Source of the DNA: a virus
IMG/VR virus record: IMGVR_UViG_3300044294_000217
Location: 1-29,119 of that record
Reading direction: 5' to 3' (one strand)
Length of the DNA stretch: 29,119 nt
The position numbers and the translations under genes were made by a program. Below are positions 15,780 through 25,883 of this stretch, in pieces (the first letter of the stretch is position 1; every line of letters begins with the position of its first letter). The notes under the pieces were generated by a model, which had not been told where the DNA came from, did no database searches, and worked only from the letters and a program-made list of their open reading frames with translations.

Positions 15780-17831
15780 ATGATCCAAACGGTTCACACC
15801 GTTTCGGAACTCCACGAGGTAATTGCCGCCGTACAAGACAGCGGTACATTTGCCTTTGACGTTGAATCGCGTGGGGTTCTTGAACGTCACGAAGATGTGT
15901 ATGAGTACTTCACTAAGGAGTGCGCTGACCACATTAAGACGCTTAAGAACCCTACGTCGGATATTGTTGCTCGCTCTACTGAAACAATTCGCGCGCGATA
16001 CCTCCAAGAACTTGCGCTTGACCCTTTGCGCAACGAGGTGTTTTGGATTGGCATTGCTACCGCTGGCCGCTCGTGGGCAATTCCTATGGGGCACAAGTTA
16101 GGCGTAGTGCTTCGCCCAGAGGAGCGTGGAGAAGGAGATACCGTCCCCCCACCGGGACATCGCAAGGTTCTCAAAGACGGGTCGGAGTCTATAGCAAAAG
16201 CCAAGTATGTAATTCCGGCTGAGCATAGTCCCGCCCCCGAGCAGTTGTCCAAGTCGGAAGTTTTTGAGACACTGCGCCCCATTTTCTTTTCTAACTACAT
16301 CAAAGTTGGACACAACATTAAGTTTGATGTGCGTTCTATCCAAAAGTACTACGAAGAAATACCCGATGGTCCGTTCCGTGACACGATGGTCCTCCAACAC
16401 ATTTACGATGAAAACATTCCTTCTTTTGCTTTGAAGCAACTTATTGCCCACAACTTTGGCGGACATGATGCCTATGCCAAGGATGGCAAGATTGGAAAGA
16501 TCATTGACACTGTTCCATTTGACAAGGCTGCTGTTTATGTTCACCTTGACGTTCGGTGGACGTGGCTTCTCTATAACAAGTTGATGGCAAAACTTAAGAT
16601 TAATGCTGATCTCTTGCCCGCCATGGAACAGGACATGCAGGTGTTGAACGTTTTGATGCATATGGAAAACGAGGGAATTCAAGTAGATACGCATGCGCTA
16701 AAGCGCCTTCGTAAGGAACTTGATAGCAAGTTGACGCAGACGCTCCTCGCCATTTCTGAAATCGCTTACCCCGGATTTAATCCGGACTCTAATAAAGATA
16801 AACAAACATTGTTGTTTACTGGAAAACGTAAAGGTGGTCTTGGACTCAGGCCCACCAAGCGGACACCCAAAGGTGCACCATCTGTAGATAATGAGGCACT
16901 GGAGAGACTCCGGGGTAAGCATCCAATTATTCCTCTGCTTCTTGACTGGTCAGAACTTCAGAAACTTAAGGGAACTTATGTTGAAGGCTTGCTGCCCAAG
17001 TTGAATCGCGGAAAGTTGCATCCCTCGTTTCACCTTCACCGCACGGCGACAGGGCGGCTTTCTTCGTCTGACCCCAACCTGCAGAACATTCCTCGAGACT
17101 CCAGCATCCGTGGTTTGTTTGTTCCGCCTGACGGACACACCATGCTCGTAGCCGACTATGACCAAATTGAACTGCGTGTCATGGCTATGTTCAGTCAGGA
17201 TAAAGAGTTGTTGCGAATCTTTAGGACAGGCGAAGACATTCATACGGCCACCGCTGCCGCGGTGTTCAAGAAGGACATTTCTAAAGTTACGGCAAGCGAG
17301 CGGCAGGTGGGAAAAGGCGTTAACTTCCTTACCGCTTACGGGGGAGGCGCCGCCAAGTTAGCCCGCGTCACCAGTATTGATGATTCTCATGCCGCAGATA
17401 TTCTTAAGGCGTACTACAGAAGTTTTGCTGGATTGACACAGTGGAAGCAGACGGCAATTGCCAAAGCAACCCGGAATGGTTACGTTACAACTATCAGCGG
17501 ACGGCGTAGGAGGCTTCCAGACCTTACTTCCCAATACCAAGAAATGGTGTCGCGGGCGCAGAGGCAAGCCATCAATGCCATCATTCAGGGAAGTGCCGCA
17601 GATATTTGTAAAGAAGCAATGGTAGCAGTTAACAAGGCTTTTGCGGGAACGCCCGCTCGCATGCTTGTTCAGGTTCACGATGAATTGGTCGCCACTGCCC
17701 CCGAAGACAGACAAGAATATTTTATCAAAACTCTTGTCCACGCCATGGGCCACGAAAGATCTATCATGGGGGTCTCTCTTAAGGTTTCGTGCCACTCGGC
17801 ACGTAGTTGGTCGGAGGCCAAAGGCAAATGA
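15780..17831 (+). CDS. DNA polymerase I (family A) with 3'-5' exonuclease domain
   Basis: 683 residues. The exonuclease domain occupies about 1-280, with FAFDVESRG (Asp27, Glu29), KVGHNIKFDV and a YVHLDVRWTWLLY motif (Y-x3-D). It contains an insertion of roughly 60-70 residues after Exo I, with no motif I know. The polymerase domain has TGRLSSSDPNLQNIP, motif A VADYDQIELR (Asp459), motif B RQVGKGVNF with Arg508, Lys512 and Phe516, and motif C VQVHDELVA (His633-Asp634-Glu635). Phe516 aligns with E. coli Phe762, the residue used to group viral PolA. There is no 5'-3' exonuclease domain. It would be the phage replicase. Confidence 0.95.
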   Translation: MIQTVHTVSELHEVIAAVQDSGTFAFDVESRGVLERHEDVYEYFTKECADHIKTLKNPTSDIVARSTETIRARYLQELALDPLRNEVFWIGIATAGRSWAIPMGHKLGVVLRPEERGEGDTVPPPGHRKVLKDGSESIAKAKYVIPAEHSPAPEQLSKSEVFETLRPIFFSNYIKVGHNIKFDVRSIQKYYEEIPDGPFRDTMVLQHIYDENIPSFALKQLIAHNFGGHDAYAKDGKIGKIIDTVPFDKAAVYVHLDVRWTWLLYNKLMAKLKINADLLPAMEQDMQVLNVLMHMENEGIQVDTHALKRLRKELDSKLTQTLLAISEIAYPGFNPDSNKDKQTLLFTGKRKGGLGLRPTKRTPKGAPSVDNEALERLRGKHPIIPLLLDWSELQKLKGTYVEGLLPKLNRGKLHPSFHLHRTATGRLSSSDPNLQNIPRDSSIRGLFVPPDGHTMLVADYDQIELRVMAMFSQDKELLRIFRTGEDIHTATAAAVFKKDISKVTASERQVGKGVNFLTAYGGGAAKLARVTSIDDSHAADILKAYYRSFAGLTQWKQTAIAKATRNGYVTTISGRRRRLPDLTSQYQEMVSRAQRQAINAIIQGSAADICKEAMVAVNKAFAGTPARMLVQVHDELVATAPEDRQEYFIKTLVHAMGHERSIMGVSLKVSCHSARSWSEAKGK

Positions 17832-18564: not shown

Positions 18565-19584
18565 ATGGCAGATTACAGTTCACTTGCTTCTATCATCGAT
18601 TCCGTTAATAAGAAGTACGGCGTTGAAGCCGTTATTCGCGGGAGTCAAATTCAAGAGCATATAACGAGAGTCACCACTGGCATCCTTGCGTATGACCTGA
18701 TGCTTGGCGGTGGCTGGCCCGCAAATCAGTGGAGCGAGATCATTGGTGATGAGTCGTCTGGCAAAACGGCCATTGCCCTCAAGACCATTGCAGCAAACCA
18801 AATGCTTGACCCTGAGTGGACTGCTGTGTGGATTGCTGCTGAGGAGTTCGTACCGGAATACGCAAAAGCAATTGGCGTCGACCTTGACCGCCTGTGGATC
18901 GTTGAAATTAACCTTATGGAACAAGCGTACAACCTTGTAATTGACATCATGGCCAATCGTGCCGCCGATTGCGTAGTCATTGATTCCCTTCCGGCGCTCG
19001 TTCCCTCTGACGAATCTGAGCGTCCCATGGACGAATTCACCGTTGGTCTTGGCGCGCGTCTTACTTCCAAGTTCTTCCGTAAAGCCGCCCCGGCGCAGAA
19101 ACGTTCAAAGACTGAACAGGACAGGGCATGCACTGGGCTTATCGTTAATCAGTGGCGTGAAAAAATTGGTGTCATGTGGGGTGACCCGCGCACCACCCCG
19201 GGCGGTAAGGCCAAAAACTTTCACTACTTCACTCGCGTTGAGGTTAAGCGCGATGAATGGATTAAGAACAAGGATGAGATTGTGGGACAAACCATCAAGG
19301 CTCGCACTATGAAGAACAAGACGTATAGGCCCTCGCAAGCAGCCGTGGTTGATTTCTATTTTGCTCCCTATCAAAATTTCAACCTTGGTGGGTTTGACAC
19401 CATCAAGGACATGGTGAATATTGCCACCGTTGTTGATATCGTTACCCGCGCTGGTGCGTACTACGCCTACAAAGATCAGCGCTGGCAGGGAAAAGACAGG
19501 ATGCTTGAATCGTTCCGCGAAGACCTTTCTCTGCAGGCAAACCTCAAGACGGATATTGAACAACGTTTCAAGGTGTCTCGATAA
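18565..19584 (+). CDS. RecA-like recombinase
   Basis: 339 residues. Walker A is GDESSGKT (61-68) within EIIGDESSGKTAIALKTIAA. Then follow VWIAAEEFVPEYAKAIGVDL, Walker B DCVVIDSLPALVPS and the L2 region GLIVNQWREKIGVMWGDPRT, which continues TPGGKAKNF as in bacterial RecA ('N-Q-x-R-x-K-x-G-V-x-x-G-x-P--TPGG-A'). The length is close to bacterial RecA and it reads as RecA/UvsX rather than RadA. It would form filaments on single-stranded DNA for repair and recombination-dependent replication. Two PD-(D/E)XK nuclease genes follow directly. Confidence 0.92.
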   Translation: MADYSSLASIIDSVNKKYGVEAVIRGSQIQEHITRVTTGILAYDLMLGGGWPANQWSEIIGDESSGKTAIALKTIAANQMLDPEWTAVWIAAEEFVPEYAKAIGVDLDRLWIVEINLMEQAYNLVIDIMANRAADCVVIDSLPALVPSDESERPMDEFTVGLGARLTSKFFRKAAPAQKRSKTEQDRACTGLIVNQWREKIGVMWGDPRTTPGGKAKNFHYFTRVEVKRDEWIKNKDEIVGQTIKARTMKNKTYRPSQAAVVDFYFAPYQNFNLGGFDTIKDMVNIATVVDIVTRAGAYYAYKDQRWQGKDRMLESFREDLSLQANLKTDIEQRFKVSR

Positions 19585-19925
19585 TGATCATTGGTCGTGA
19601 CCCCGATAGAAAGCGTCAACTTCTAAAGAAGTCACGCAAACAGGAGCGCCGCACCGCCGATACTTACCGCGGCTCGCGCAACGCGGGCTCTGGTGCTGGG
19701 TGGGTTCGTAAAAACGATGTTCGTAATCTTGATTTTTTATTTGAGAATAAGTTCACCGCTAATCAAAAGACCATTACTTTGAAGTCGTCTGATTTACGTG
19801 AATTACGAGAAAACGCTCTTGCCATTGATCGCATTCCCGTGTTGCAGTTTGACCTTGCCAACCACCGGTACGTGGTTCTAATTGAGGATGACTTTTTGGA
19901 AATGATTAACCATGATTCCGTCTAA
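19584..19925 (+). CDS. PD-(D/E)XK Holliday-junction-resolvase-like nuclease (1)
   Basis: 113 residues, starting on the last base of recA. The first 35 residues are very basic (KRQLLKKSRKQERRTADTYR). A nuclease-type core follows: GSGAGWVRKNDVRNLDFLFE, with Asp45, Asp50 and the E-x-K pair Glu54/Lys56 (FLFENK). Then come ITLKSSDLRELRENAL, RIPVLQFDL and RYVVLIEDDFLEM. The D...E-x-K strand pair followed by a 'P-V-L-x-F' strand and a final 'Y-V-V-L' strand fits small Hjc-like resolvases and related phage endonucleases. Catalytic assignment is inferred from spacing. It overlaps the next gene by 14 bp. Confidence 0.6.
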   Translation: MIIGRDPDRKRQLLKKSRKQERRTADTYRGSRNAGSGAGWVRKNDVRNLDFLFENKFTANQKTITLKSSDLRELRENALAIDRIPVLQFDLANHRYVVLIEDDFLEMINHDSV

Positions 19926-20784
19926 AACGGAGACTGATAGTTACAAAAAGTTGTTGACCATGGATGGCCGCATTCTTCCAACTGTCGCTATTCAAATCCT
20001 CAAAAGCAAACAGGAACGCGATAAGGAAAGGGACAATACCAAGTTTCACCCCAGCGAACTTGCCAAGAAAGATTGGTGCCCTCGCGCATCGTGGTATTCG
20101 TTTACTTCTGCAGACAAAAAAGAAGAATCATTTTCGTTTCAACGCCTTAACGTTTTTGCAGAGGGCCACGCTATTCATGCTAAATGGCAAAAGTGGCTTC
20201 GTGATGCCGGAGTACTCGAGGGCATGTGGCGTTGCATGGTGTGCGGGCATAAGTGGTGGGATGTATCGCCACATCGTTGTACCGAGTGCTCTAGCAATCT
20301 TGTTTCCTATGAAGAAGTACCACTTGCCTGCGAGGAATACATGCTTGTCGGTCGAGCGGACGGCATTGTGTCGGATCGCAGGGGGCGCACGCTTATTGAA
20401 ATTAAATCTCTTGGACTAGGAACTATCCGTTGGGAGGCACCCGATCTTTACGGCGAATACATTTCCAACAATTTCTCAATGGACGAATTGTGGAAAAAAG
20501 TTAGACAGCCATTTGCCAGCCACGTTCGCCAAGGAATGTTGTATATGCATTTCACCGGCATTCACGATCTTGTGTTTCTTTATGAGTGGAAACCAACTCA
20601 AGATGTAAAGGAATTTTCAATTAAGTATTTGCCTGAACTTGTTGAACCAATTCTGGATAATTGCAGACGTGTCATTCGCGCACTTGATGGAAAAATTCCA
20701 CCAATGCGTCCGGCATGGGCAGAATCGATATCTTGTAATGGTTGCAAGTTTTGTCCCTTTAAGAACATTTGCTGGAAGGAATAA
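19912..20784 (+). CDS. Cas4/RecB-like PD-(D/E)XK exonuclease with zinc-ribbon insertion
   Basis: 290 residues. The opening HPSELAKKDWCPRASWYSF has the 'S-x-L-x-x-x-x-x-C-x-R' motif of Cas4/AddB-type nucleases (Cys56). The nuclease core is GRADGIV (Asp150) and TLIEIKSLG (Glu163-x-Lys165). Later come HVRQGMLYMHFTGI, which holds the family's QxxxY-like helix, and the C-terminal Cys cluster C275, C278, C281, C287 (CNGCKFCPFKNIC). With Cys56 these would bind an iron-sulphur cluster. Between Cys56 and the core is a separate C108/C111/C123/C126 zinc ribbon, not part of the standard domain. No Cas1/Cas2 or repeat array is present, so a replication/recombination exonuclease is more likely than a CRISPR adaptation factor. 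Confidence 0.85.
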   Translation: MIPSKTETDSYKKLLTMDGRILPTVAIQILKSKQERDKERDNTKFHPSELAKKDWCPRASWYSFTSADKKEESFSFQRLNVFAEGHAIHAKWQKWLRDAGVLEGMWRCMVCGHKWWDVSPHRCTECSSNLVSYEEVPLACEEYMLVGRADGIVSDRRGRTLIEIKSLGLGTIRWEAPDLYGEYISNNFSMDELWKKVRQPFASHVRQGMLYMHFTGIHDLVFLYEWKPTQDVKEFSIKYLPELVEPILDNCRRVIRALDGKIPPMRPAWAESISCNGCKFCPFKNICWKE

Positions 20785-20786
20785 GC

Positions 20787-21263
20787 ATGAGTCAATCGTT
20801 AGAACTTGAGAGGTTTACTCGTAACTTTTCATTGCCCGAACGTCCCCACGGACAATTGCCTGAGATCCCCACCCACATTGGGGACATGGGAGAGTTGGAG
20901 TTGATGGAACTTTATACAGAGTTCATGGCATGGTTGAATTACGCCAAAGCACAACTTGTCATTGCGGAGATTGACGAAGAGCGCGAATTGAATCATCTTG
21001 AGTACGTCAAGTCCGCGACCCTCATTTCTTTGTGGGACAACAAGAGCAAGGGGGACATGGTCACTATCTCAAAAGCCAAACGAGATGTGGATGTTAAGAT
21101 TCAAACTCAGCAAGAAGCGTACATTCAGGCTCGCGCATACCGCAAACTGGTTGATACAGTATTTGATCGATGTGAACGTGGCACTCAAATTATCTCTCGA
21201 GAGTTGAGTCGTCGCATTAGTACTGCGCCTCAAGAGCGGCGCCTTGCTAGATACGCGCCATGA
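20787..21263 (+). CDS. Hypothetical helical protein in the recombination cluster
   Basis: 158 residues from ATG 20787, two bases after the nuclease stop; an upstream frame to 20769 lies within that gene. After a proline-containing lead (LPERPHGQLPEIPTHIGDMG) nearly all is alpha-helix: LELMELYTEFMAWLNYAKAQ, LVIAEIDEERELNHLEYVKS, KAKRDVDVKIQTQQEAYIQA, RAYRKLVDTVFDRCERGTQI. The long charged helices suggest a coiled-coil dimer. A recombination mediator or nuclease partner is conceivable from position, but there is no motif to support it. Confidence 0.65.
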   Translation: MSQSLELERFTRNFSLPERPHGQLPEIPTHIGDMGELELMELYTEFMAWLNYAKAQLVIAEIDEERELNHLEYVKSATLISLWDNKSKGDMVTISKAKRDVDVKIQTQQEAYIQARAYRKLVDTVFDRCERGTQIISRELSRRISTAPQERRLARYAP

Positions 21264-21427
21264 TGAAAGTAAAATGTTTAAAGTGCGAAGGTATAGTTGA
21301 ATACATTAAAGGACGCACGGCGGGATGTTTTTGCGACCCAGACGCCCCAACTTGGATTGGTATTGGGCCAGATAAAAAATTATTGAAACTTTCTAATGTC
21401 AAATACGAGGTCATAGACGATGGGTAA
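21260..21427 (+). CDS. Tiny Cys-rich hypothetical protein
   Basis: 55 residues from ATG 21260 (or 54 from the adjacent ATG 21263). It fills the gap between two longer genes with overlaps on both sides: ATGA-type upstream, 8 bp downstream. C6-x2-C9 (VKCLKCEG) and C23-x-C25 (AGCFCDPD) could bind one zinc. The middle reads APTWIGIGPDKK. Exact tiling with its neighbours makes it a likely real gene. Function unknown. Confidence 0.6.
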   Translation: MMKVKCLKCEGIVEYIKGRTAGCFCDPDAPTWIGIGPDKKLLKLSNVKYEVIDDG

Positions 21428-21785
21428 CAAACACAAGGCTAAGGGCACGTCGTTTGAAACGTTAGTGGTCAACTATCTTAAGGAAAAGGGTTTTTGCAAA
21501 GCACGACGCACTGCCTTGCAAGGCATCAACGATTCCGGCGACATTAATGGAATTGTCAACCGTGTCAGTCAGTCAGAACTGGCCGTCCAATGCAAAAACC
21601 AAAAAGCCTTTGACTTGAGCGGCTGGCTCAACGATACGGTTGAACAAGCCAAAAAACTTAACGACGGAGTACCCCTGTTGGTGATTAAGCGTCCCGGAAA
21701 GGGTGCTAAAGCATTGGGGGATTCGTATGCCGTTATGCGCCTTGACGACATTATTCGTCTGCTGCAAGAAGCCGAATATTTCTAA
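21420..21785 (+). CDS. PD-(D/E)XK Holliday-junction-resolvase-like nuclease (2)
   Basis: 121 residues. KGTSFETLVVNYLKEKGF (Glu13) begins the helix of Hjc-like nucleases. ALQGINDSGDINGI supplies Asp41. LAVQCKNQKAF supplies Gln57-x-Lys59, the Q-x-K variant of E-x-K used in several resolvase families. DLSGWLNDTVEQAKKLND and VPLLVIKRPGKG with SYAVMRLDDI complete the fold. It would cut branched DNA during recombination or packaging. It is the second resolvase-type gene within 2.2 kb and is not similar in detail to the first. Confidence 0.75.
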   Translation: MGNKHKAKGTSFETLVVNYLKEKGFCKARRTALQGINDSGDINGIVNRVSQSELAVQCKNQKAFDLSGWLNDTVEQAKKLNDGVPLLVIKRPGKGAKALGDSYAVMRLDDIIRLLQEAEYF

Positions 21786-21796
21786 TTGCTGCCCTC

Positions 21797-21805
21797 TGGT
21801 AAAAT
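21797..21805 (+). promoter_or_regulatory. Candidate extended -10 promoter before the SpoVS gene
   Basis: TGGTAAAAT fits the extended -10 pattern TGnTAnaaT. No -35 hexamer is visible 17 bases upstream. The expected start near 21812 would leave a ~23-base leader with Shine-Dalgarno AGGAGA at 21825-21830. A small dyad CTAAC (21810-21814) / GTTAG (21822-21826) overlaps that leader and touches the ribosome site. Confidence 0.4.
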
Positions 21806-21834
21806 TGCCCTAACTTGTACAGTTAGGAGACAAA

Positions 21835-22125
21835 ATGTCACAGGAATTGCACGCCAAGATTGAGGATGTTCTCAAAGTTTCAGGAAGTAGTAATCCACAA
21901 AGCGTGGGATCAATCCTTGCCCGCTCTGTTGTGGCAGGGCACCTCCCTAAGATTCGAGCCATTGGCGCCAGTGCGGTAAATCAGGCGTCTAAAGCCTGCG
22001 CCATTGCGCGTGGTTTTGTCGCGCCTCGAGGCCTTGATCTTTGCTTTATCATTGGCTTTGATGATATTATTGGAGAGCACGGAGAAAGCATTTCTGCCAT
22101 TTCGTTTAAACCTGTTGTGAGGTAA
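21835..22125 (+). CDS. SpoVS-family (Alba-like) protein
   Basis: 96 residues, close to the bacterial SpoVS length (~86). Family strings are nearly continuous: LKVSGSSNPQSVGSILARSV, IRAIGASAVNQASKACAIAR, GFVAPRGLDLCFIIGFDDI, ISAISFKPV. These match the bacterial pattern 'LKVS--S-P-SVAGALA ... I-AIGAGA-NQA-KA-AIARGFVAP-G-DL'. SpoVS is a small Alba-like nucleic-acid-binding protein acting in B. subtilis sporulation, and it occurs in other bacteria without spores. Here it stands just after the recombination cluster with its own likely promoter. Its job in the phage could be DNA or RNA binding, or influence on host development; neither is shown by the sequence. Confidence 0.9.
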   Translation: MSQELHAKIEDVLKVSGSSNPQSVGSILARSVVAGHLPKIRAIGASAVNQASKACAIARGFVAPRGLDLCFIIGFDDIIGEHGESISAISFKPVVR

Positions 22126-22127
22126 TC

Positions 22128-22724
22128 ATGCCGTTGTTTCGACATAAGGGTTACAAGCCTGACGCGAGTGGACGAACCGACAACCCCCACGGCGCCCCGT
22201 CGTTACCTCCTAAGCCAGAAGAGCGCCCTCGAACGCTGCGAGACGCACGAAGGCCACCGCCGTTACCTCCTAGGCCAGTGATTGGAGGTGGCGAAACTAC
22301 GTATCCGACTGCTACAAAAGATACTGCTCCTCGCAGTAAGAAAAAGGCTATTAAGAGAGTCAACAAAGAAATTAGACAACGCACTCCTGAAGAGGCTGCT
22401 CGTGGAAAACTTCGCGGCGAAGCCTACGACATTGCTAGGTCACAGGAAGCGAGTTATGATCCAGACAAGAGAGAATATGGTTATCTTCCTCAGGGTTCTG
22501 GCTTTAAGAGGACTATGGTTAGTAGAGGCATTGACGCGGCTGCTGACAAACTTCAAGAAACTCGTAAGAGCATTCAGTCAAAAACAGAACAAGGCCGCAC
22601 CATTAAGAAACGCATGGATGGTGGGGATATGGATGCCGTGTTTGAGCCGGGACCCGCACCACTTGTTGGGGACGAATTAGATGTGCAATACTACGACAAA
22701 GGCAAGGCTAAAAAGTCTCGATAA
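22128..22724 (+). CDS. Basic, proline-rich hypothetical protein
   Basis: 198 residues, starting 2 bases after the SpoVS stop with GAGG upstream. The first 75 residues are Pro/Arg-rich with a repeated element (APSLPPKPEERP and PPPLPPRPVIG, matching at DNA level as CGTTACCTCCTA-GCCAG at ~22200 and ~22262). Residues 75-175 are charged helices (KKKAIKRVNKEIRQRTPEEA, ADKLQETRKSIQSKTEQGRT). No enzyme motif, signal or membrane span. The composition suits an internal virion or nucleic-acid-binding protein, which is inference only. Confidence 0.65.
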   Translation: MPLFRHKGYKPDASGRTDNPHGAPSLPPKPEERPRTLRDARRPPPLPPRPVIGGGETTYPTATKDTAPRSKKKAIKRVNKEIRQRTPEEAARGKLRGEAYDIARSQEASYDPDKREYGYLPQGSGFKRTMVSRGIDAAADKLQETRKSIQSKTEQGRTIKKRMDGGDMDAVFEPGPAPLVGDELDVQYYDKGKAKKSR

Positions 22725-25610: not shown

Positions 25611-25883
25611 ATGGCTAAATCAGCCGCATGGCAACGTAAAGAGGGGAAGAACCCTGAAGGTGGGTTGAACGCTAAGGGTCGTGCTTCGTACAAGCGTGAA
25701 ACTGGCGGAACTCTCAAGCCCCCGGTATCGAGAGAAGAGGCTTCTAAGTCTAAATCCAAAGCCGCTCGTCGTAAATCGTTTTGTGCTCGTATGGAGGGCA
25801 TGAAGAAAAAGAACACATCCTCTAAAACCGCTCGTGATCCAAATAGTAGAATTAATAAGTCACTAAGAAAGTGGGATTGTTAA
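25611..25883 (+). CDS. DUF6321-like small basic phage protein
   Basis: 90 residues. AWQRKEGKNPEGGLNAKGRA, YKRETGGTLKPPV, KSFCARMEGMKKKNTSSKTA and RDPNSRINKSLRKWDC form a strongly conserved pattern that I associate with a small protein found in many unrelated tailed phages (DUF6321). The name is from memory and the function is unknown. It is short, basic and free of membrane segments. Confidence 0.75.
   Translation: MAKSAAWQRKEGKNPEGGLNAKGRASYKRETGGTLKPPVSREEASKSKSKAARRKSFCARMEGMKKKNTSSKTARDPNSRINKSLRKWDC

Follow-up and report, generated by a model that had tools for sequence, protein, structure and literature searches.

A SpoVS-family, Alba-like protein is the constant partner gene of Holliday-junction resolvases in a large group of phages

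The stretch of DNA analysed here, hereafter the window, is the whole of IMG/VR record IMGVR_UViG_3300044294_000217, a linear fragment of 29,119 bases in which no tRNAs were found. Along it, tail and baseplate genes are followed by genes for a helicase loader, a DnaB helicase, a primase, a second helicase, a DNA polymerase and RecA and, further on in the same replication and recombination module, by a small gene of the SpoVS family (Table 1). The position of this gene behind recombination genes, pointed out in a preliminary description of the sequence, is confirmed: RecA, the Cas4-type exonuclease and a resolvase all precede it. The closest named relatives of RecA, the exonuclease and the polymerase are found in BRock, LuckySocke, Alone3, GiJojo and pSt2308, Streptomyces phages that all carry SpoVS, and those of the exonuclease are limited to BRock-group Streptomyces phages and Thermus phages. 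BRock has been described as a virulent myovirus (PMC7453282). The SSB-like protein yielded no match in a Pfam search. The window phage seemingly encodes two resolvases, the PHROG 2002 protein and the Hjc-like one. A DUF6321 protein at positions 25611-25883 (PF19846, E 4.6e-24) has further matches, at the C-terminal end, to several families of larger phage proteins whose function is unknown.

Table 1. Features of the replication and recombination module in the window
Feature	Position	Strand	Evidence and remarks
Family A DNA polymerase	15780..17831	+	PHROG 17, E 9e-130; same module
RecA-type recombinase	18565..19584	+	PF00154, E 2.4e-54
Second Holliday-junction-resolvase family protein	19584..19925	+	PHROG 2002, E 3.6e-19; between RecA and Cas4-type exonuclease
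Cas4-type exonuclease	19912..20784	+	PHROG 2506, E 1.5e-36; anchor gene of the SpoVS-independent scans
SSB-like protein	20769..21263	+	Homologue of LuckySocke protein annotated SSB, 34% identity, E 4e-15 to 6e-15
Predicted Holliday-junction resolvase, Hjc-like PD-(D/E)XK fold	21420..21785	+	121 aa; PHROG 244, E 1.3e-25; Mrr_cat, E 1e-4; AlphaFold model
Spacer/leader between resolvase and SpoVS	21786..21834	+	Hairpin CTAACT-tgtac-AGTTAG overlapping the Shine-Dalgarno sequence
SpoVS-family Alba-like protein	21835..22125	+	96 aa; profile searches, AlphaFold model

The spoVS open reading frame starts with ATG behind an AGGAGA Shine-Dalgarno sequence, and its product is a genuine member of the SpoVS family with an Alba-like fold, as the preliminary description had claimed. 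In the profile search that it had proposed, Pfam SpoVS (PF04232) matched with 70.1 bits (E 1.3e-19; cut-off 24), residues 11-92 covering positions 1-81 of the 83 in the profile, and matches were also obtained with PHROG 35646 'sporulation protein' (E 5e-16) and the Thermus SpoVS crystal chain 2eh1 (E 1.2e-10). An AlphaFold model computed from 51 window and locus sequences (pLDDT 91.2, pTM 0.79) has the order b-a-b-a-b-b and fits solved SpoVS structures first, namely B. subtilis 9a7h (Z 16.3) and Thermus 2eh1 (Z 15.8) and 2ek0 (Z 15.7), all with an rmsd of 1.2-1.3, followed by archaeal Alba (Z about 10-10.7; 1udv, Z 10.7), Rpp25/Pop6 and IF3-C. In relatives, the gene is under purifying selection: the median dN/dS was 0.077 in 216 pairs, the other 1162 of the 1378 falling outside the usable range. 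Judged by family and fold, nucleic-acid binding, raised earlier as a possibility, is plausible.

The gene directly upstream, whose stop codon lies 49 nt before the spoVS start, encodes a protein that matches a known resolvase fold and family and is predicted to cleave junctions. Archaeal Hjc and Hje resolvases fill PDB ranks 1-8 for its AlphaFold model (pLDDT 85.5) with Z scores of 7.9-8.2, and the resolvase of Thermus phage 15-6 comes next (Z 6.1); the best Foldseek E-value is 2.3e-3, and a Z near 8 is modest by itself, the ranking being consistent. Residues D41, Q57 and K59 are invariant among 51 homologues.

A viral scan with the SpoVS of the window returned 80 loci with 76-93% identity. 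SpoVS was located by tblastn in 80/80 of them, and each of the 80, like the window, has the same resolvase upstream, with its end 31-160 nt from SpoVS. A second viral scan, with LuckySocke SpoVS as query, returned 80 further loci, which together with LuckySocke and BRock make up 82 BRock-type loci; here, the upstream gene encodes a distant resolvase of the same family in 65, a RuvC-like protein in 11 and endonuclease VII in 6. These loci had all been found through SpoVS, and the Cas4-type exonuclease was therefore used as query instead. Among Cas4-anchored contigs, part of which are identical to those from the SpoVS scans, all those reaching at least 4 kb beyond Cas4 carry SpoVS (52/52, 36/36 and 36/36, a total of 124/124), and with 2.5 kb beyond Cas4 the counts are 61/61, 39/40 and 56/56. 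The 32 loci without SpoVS are contigs that stop short, 11 of them, from the first Cas4 scan, ending no more than 1.7 kb from Cas4. Thus, SpoVS belongs to the core of the recombination module of these phages and lacks the optional character expected of a viral auxiliary gene. This status as a core gene rather than optional cargo speaks against the earlier suggestion that the protein might alter host development.

Across all scans, 360 loci gave 328 with SpoVS, and once 98 duplicates and a single contig-end locus had been removed, 229 distinct loci were left. In every one of them (229/229), a resolvase gene of the same orientation directly precedes SpoVS, as counted with HMMs built from the loci themselves, the independent Pfam and PHROG naming being confined to representatives. 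Four resolvase types are involved: the Hjc-like PD-(D/E)XK type of the window (185 loci), RuvC-like proteins (25), endonuclease VII (17) and RusA (2). Representatives matched Endonuclease_7 with E 3e-27 to 2e-22, PHROG 244 with E 2e-8 to 4e-24 and the RuvC-like PHROG 159 with E 3e-27 to 7e-29, the Pfam RuvC matches (E 5e-4 to 7e-4) being under Pfam's cut-off; the true RusA upstream of SpoVS in two contigs matched PF05866 with E 2e-11 and 1e-5. The gap between the two genes is at most 200 nt in 224 of the 229 loci and 200-800 nt in the other 5, with a small ORF in between in the examined cases. A downstream resolvase was found in none of 302 SpoVS loci. By comparison, a resolvase within 1.5 kb upstream occurs in 0/21 SpoVS loci of other phages and in 1/116 cellular ones.

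The map around the two genes is far less stable. A tree of the Cas4-type exonuclease, which took in 60 of 108 distinct proteins, shows five or more switches of resolvase type. Cas4 and the resolvase are 400 to 5022 nt apart (n = 221), and the next conserved gene follows SpoVS at a distance of 157 to 6259 nt (n = 127), as against 63-690 nt, with a median of 80, from the resolvase to the SpoVS domain (n = 229); neighbouring genes fall into 17 clusters downstream (153 loci) and 3 upstream (163 loci). Given that distances and neighbours vary, the pair of resolvase and SpoVS is held together while the map changes. Our central result is that, throughout a large group of phages, spoVS constantly accompanies a junction-resolvase gene; the SpoVS family itself is already known, and this place as a partner gene is new. 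In two distant loci, a deoxynucleotide monophosphate kinase gene lies shortly upstream of the pair (L428, 10714-11382; L222, 2443-3021, minus strand).

The SpoVS proteins of BRock, LuckySocke, Alone3, GiJojo and pSt2308 (PHROG 35646 family) are homologous to that of the window, with 41-43% identity, and have been annotated solely as hypothetical or sporulation proteins. In LuckySocke and BRock, SpoVS belongs to the same module and occupies the same place behind a resolvase, there RuvC-like; the BRock paper mentions neither SpoVS nor a resolvase (PMC7453282). The proteins of this phage group share family, fold and the NQAxKA core with bacterial SpoVS of B. subtilis and Thermus thermophilus but differ in an N-terminal extension of about 10 residues, in a more positive charge and in two arginines, R41 and R65, that are present in 79/79 distinct phage proteins (39 window-type and 40 BRock-type). 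R41 is found in none of 15 proteins of other phages, in 11% of 79 cellular proteins (a set that includes L089, discussed below) and in 2% of 34 more, and arginine at position 65 does not rank with the four commonest residues of the other-phage group or of either cellular group. The mean net charge of the core is +3.1 in window-type and +6.0 in BRock-type proteins, compared with 0.0 and 0.65 in the two cellular sets.

In a quick tree of 110 of 180 distinct rows over 85 columns, phage SpoVS of this group, together with the matches from Actinomycetes genomes, lies on one side of a branch with an SH-aLRT of 94, which rises to 100 after removal of five long-branch rows (L089 among them; L222 was kept). 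No cellular sister of the phage clade was found in the repeated tree. The phylogeny called for in the preliminary description thus bears out that the phage copies form a clade, but the clade is their own and does not name a host. A search for a close cellular donor, made as a scan with two short exact peptides and hence biased towards Chloroflexota, reached a best identity of 54%, with no close relative.

Both matches in Actinomycetes genomes, L089 and L222, are pairs of a RuvC-like gene and SpoVS on the phage side of the tree. They look phage-derived, judging from the RuvC-like gene before SpoVS and from a phage zinc-finger protein nearby in L089. They are also the only two genomes with SpoVS above the cut-off among 394 of the class of the Streptomyces genome G034, which does not favour the proposal that the phage protein replaces a host copy; however, of 396 genomes sampled across the phylum, 127 carry SpoVS, and the host of the window phage may belong to another class. 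WhiB, which the accessible parts of two papers present as an actinophage marker (PMC10202952, PMC6802176), was found in 24 of 34 records, namely the window and 33 of the 80 loci from the scan with its SpoVS, the window being among the 10 without it. Taken together, WhiB in related contigs and the Streptomyces-phage relatives indicate that the host is probably an actinobacterium, and that the window phage and its group probably infect Actinobacteria (Actinomycetota). Relatives of the resolvase in Actinomycetes genomes (9/394, at most 39% identity) were uninformative as to the host.

The preliminary description had also credited spoVS with a likely promoter of its own. A sigma-70 scan of positions 20700-22700 gave 2 sites where chance alone predicts 2.1, with no site in the 200 nt upstream of spoVS, and does not bear this out. 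The leader of the window is weakly structured (z -0.74 for 76 nt, -1.91 for 54 nt). In Hjc-type loci, 50-nt SpoVS leaders fold with z below -2 relative to shuffles in 23/53 window-type and 39/67 BRock-type cases, compared with 32/334 control leaders of six other genes from the same phages, and the Shine-Dalgarno sequence is mostly paired in 38/53 and 46/67, respectively; elsewhere, the structure is weak (endonuclease VII, 2/8; RuvC, 6/21; RusA, 0/2). The hairpins, seen in the window and across L002-L518, often cover the SpoVS Shine-Dalgarno sequence, but their sequences differ and show little conservation. When aligned leaders were folded to a consensus, 3 of 4 groups showed no structure; the HMM behind these alignments extended beyond the start codon on its upstream side and misplaced leaders.

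In some loci, and weakly so in the window, the partner strand of the hairpin is the end of the resolvase gene, a pairing that would couple translation of resolvase and SpoVS. A uniform coupling hairpin between the resolvase stop region and the SpoVS Shine-Dalgarno sequence was considered and rejected: it holds in part for window-type loci (mean pairing 0.42 versus 0.16 in shuffled sequences, 31/57 loci above their own shuffles) and not for BRock-type ones (0.09 versus 0.13). In loci with RuvC or endonuclease VII, a GC-rich, terminator-like hairpin often lies between the two genes, which implies that resolvase and SpoVS may not share one transcript. Hairpins of this kind, several of them followed by T, precede SpoVS in L082, L087, L226, L228, L229, L231 and L245, relatives of Streptomyces phages, and SpoVS may have its own promoter in these loci.

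SpoVS is the standard gene behind one of four unrelated resolvase types and is therefore probably involved in processing phage DNA. The reading that we favour, with a probability of about 0.5, is that SpoVS serves as an Alba-like DNA-binding partner of the phage Holliday-junction resolvase. Encoded right behind the resolvase, it would be expressed within the replication and recombination module alongside RecA, the Cas4-type exonuclease, SSB and the resolvase. SpoVS dimers would then bind duplex arms or branched DNA through their arginine-enriched surface, giving the junction its shape or clearing it for cleavage by the phage's resolvase, of whatever type; branched replication intermediates would thereby be removed before packaging. 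The survival of SpoVS when the resolvase is replaced by one of another fold suggests that it acts on the DNA and not on one protein surface. We infer that the protein may bind DNA, act directly on the junction and touch the resolvase physically; against such a partnership, gene neighbourhood stands for a shared task, not contact, and the extra arginines could also serve RNA binding. Moreover, 239 INPHARED records hold a relative of the resolvase and only 11 a relative of SpoVS, so that Hjc-type enzymes do not generally need SpoVS. A broader claim, that SpoVS is a general Holliday-junction cofactor which remodels four-way junctions for four unrelated resolvase folds and that cellular SpoVS may share a role in recombination, is possible but doubtful; if true, the sporulation defect associated with SpoVS in Bacillus would be a side effect of that role.

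The same map could arise if SpoVS were a core protein with an unrelated task, such as genome compaction, nucleoid displacement or packaging, and the resolvase slot merely a position at which resolvases are exchanged by flanking recombination, SpoVS being the flank on the downstream side. Such a task would suit an Alba-like protein, since proteins of this kind coat DNA generically. We consider this rather doubtful, as genes and spacing on either side differ from locus to locus, whereas the pair itself is rarely parted (only the 5 loci at 200-800 nt), and as both SpoVS matches in Actinomycetes genomes adjoin a RuvC-like gene too. It is unlikely, again, that SpoVS is chiefly an RNA-binding regulator of its own operon, acting for instance through the leader hairpin, in the manner in which Alba- and IF3-C-like folds often bind RNA. 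The Hjc-type leaders do fold better than shuffles and controls, RNA-binding Rpp25/Pop6 and IF3-C are among the structural neighbours, and some Chloroflexota have their spoVS downstream of the gene for RNase Y; yet the leader of the window is not strongly structured, those of the endonuclease VII, RuvC and RusA groups are weak, and a regulatory role leaves the constant junction-resolvase partner unexplained.

Viral SpoVS is reported as a sporulation gene in the accessible portions of several virome papers (PMC8940887, PMC6172770, PMC9765229), and papers tie WhiB, present in 24 of the 34 records, to septation in those of their passages available to us. For the present group, it is nevertheless very improbable that SpoVS is an auxiliary gene acquired from the host and affecting host sporulation or development: SpoVS is a core gene inside a recombination module, it forms a clade apart from cellular SpoVS, the two Streptomyces-class genomes that have it among 394 owe it, by the look of the loci, to phages, and spoVS is widespread both within and outside Firmicutes according to the part of PMC3533761 available. 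Gene context thus argues against a role of phage SpoVS in spore formation, and the protein probably helps the virus to process its own DNA rather than to change host development. Virome papers count viral spoVS as a sign of sporulation manipulation, a label that looks wrong for this phage group, in which SpoVS is a core DNA-processing gene of phages probably infecting Actinobacteria. The available part of a further paper, PMC6292020, concerns soil transcripts.

The proposed partnership of an Alba-like protein with a junction resolvase has a precedent in virus SIRV2. SIRV2 Hjr and archaeal Hjc share their fold with the resolvase of the window, and in the accessible part of the report on SIRV2 Hjr, an archaeal-type viral resolvase, the enzyme pulled down Alba, Sso10b, Sso7d and Cren7, directly or through nucleic acid according to its authors (PMC3157427). 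The architectural protein is the host's in SIRV2, whereas in the window it is phage-encoded, directly behind the resolvase. Archaeal Alba chromatin proteins (Sso10b) have the same overall fold as the window SpoVS, for which nucleic-acid binding would be expected, but belong to a different family, with 10-21% identity over aligned residues. We know of no junction partner gene of archaeal Alba. The part available of a paper on Alba confirms the relation between SpoVS and Alba and mentions no phage (PMC11621453). In the titles and abstract openings of the open-licence literature, we found no link between SpoVS and resolvases, an absence that is weak evidence, and in that literature we found neither biochemistry of SpoVS on DNA junctions nor an established function for this old protein family. 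The phages described here tie it to one biochemical step, the resolution of Holliday junctions, and a role in this step is directly testable with the small proteins of cultivable Streptomyces phages.

SpoVS of other phages, namely Stenotrophomonas phage TS-12, Lysinibacillus phages LysYB1/2 and faecal phages, belongs to the same family but groups with the cellular proteins in the tree and has no adjoining resolvase. The TS-12 type (L305-L321, L083) is a second kind of phage SpoVS and likely a true host-derived copy. Of the 49 cellular loci whose upstream DNA was long enough, 6 (L099, L104, L106, L118, L129 and L137) have recA and the RNase Y gene ahead of spoVS. These are all Chloroflexota where the title names the phylum, so that some Chloroflexota have spoVS near recA, as the phages do. 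The title of PDB entry 9a7h, the part of this source on which we rely, describes a crosslinking-based model of B. subtilis SpoVS with YunD, a possible cellular partner.
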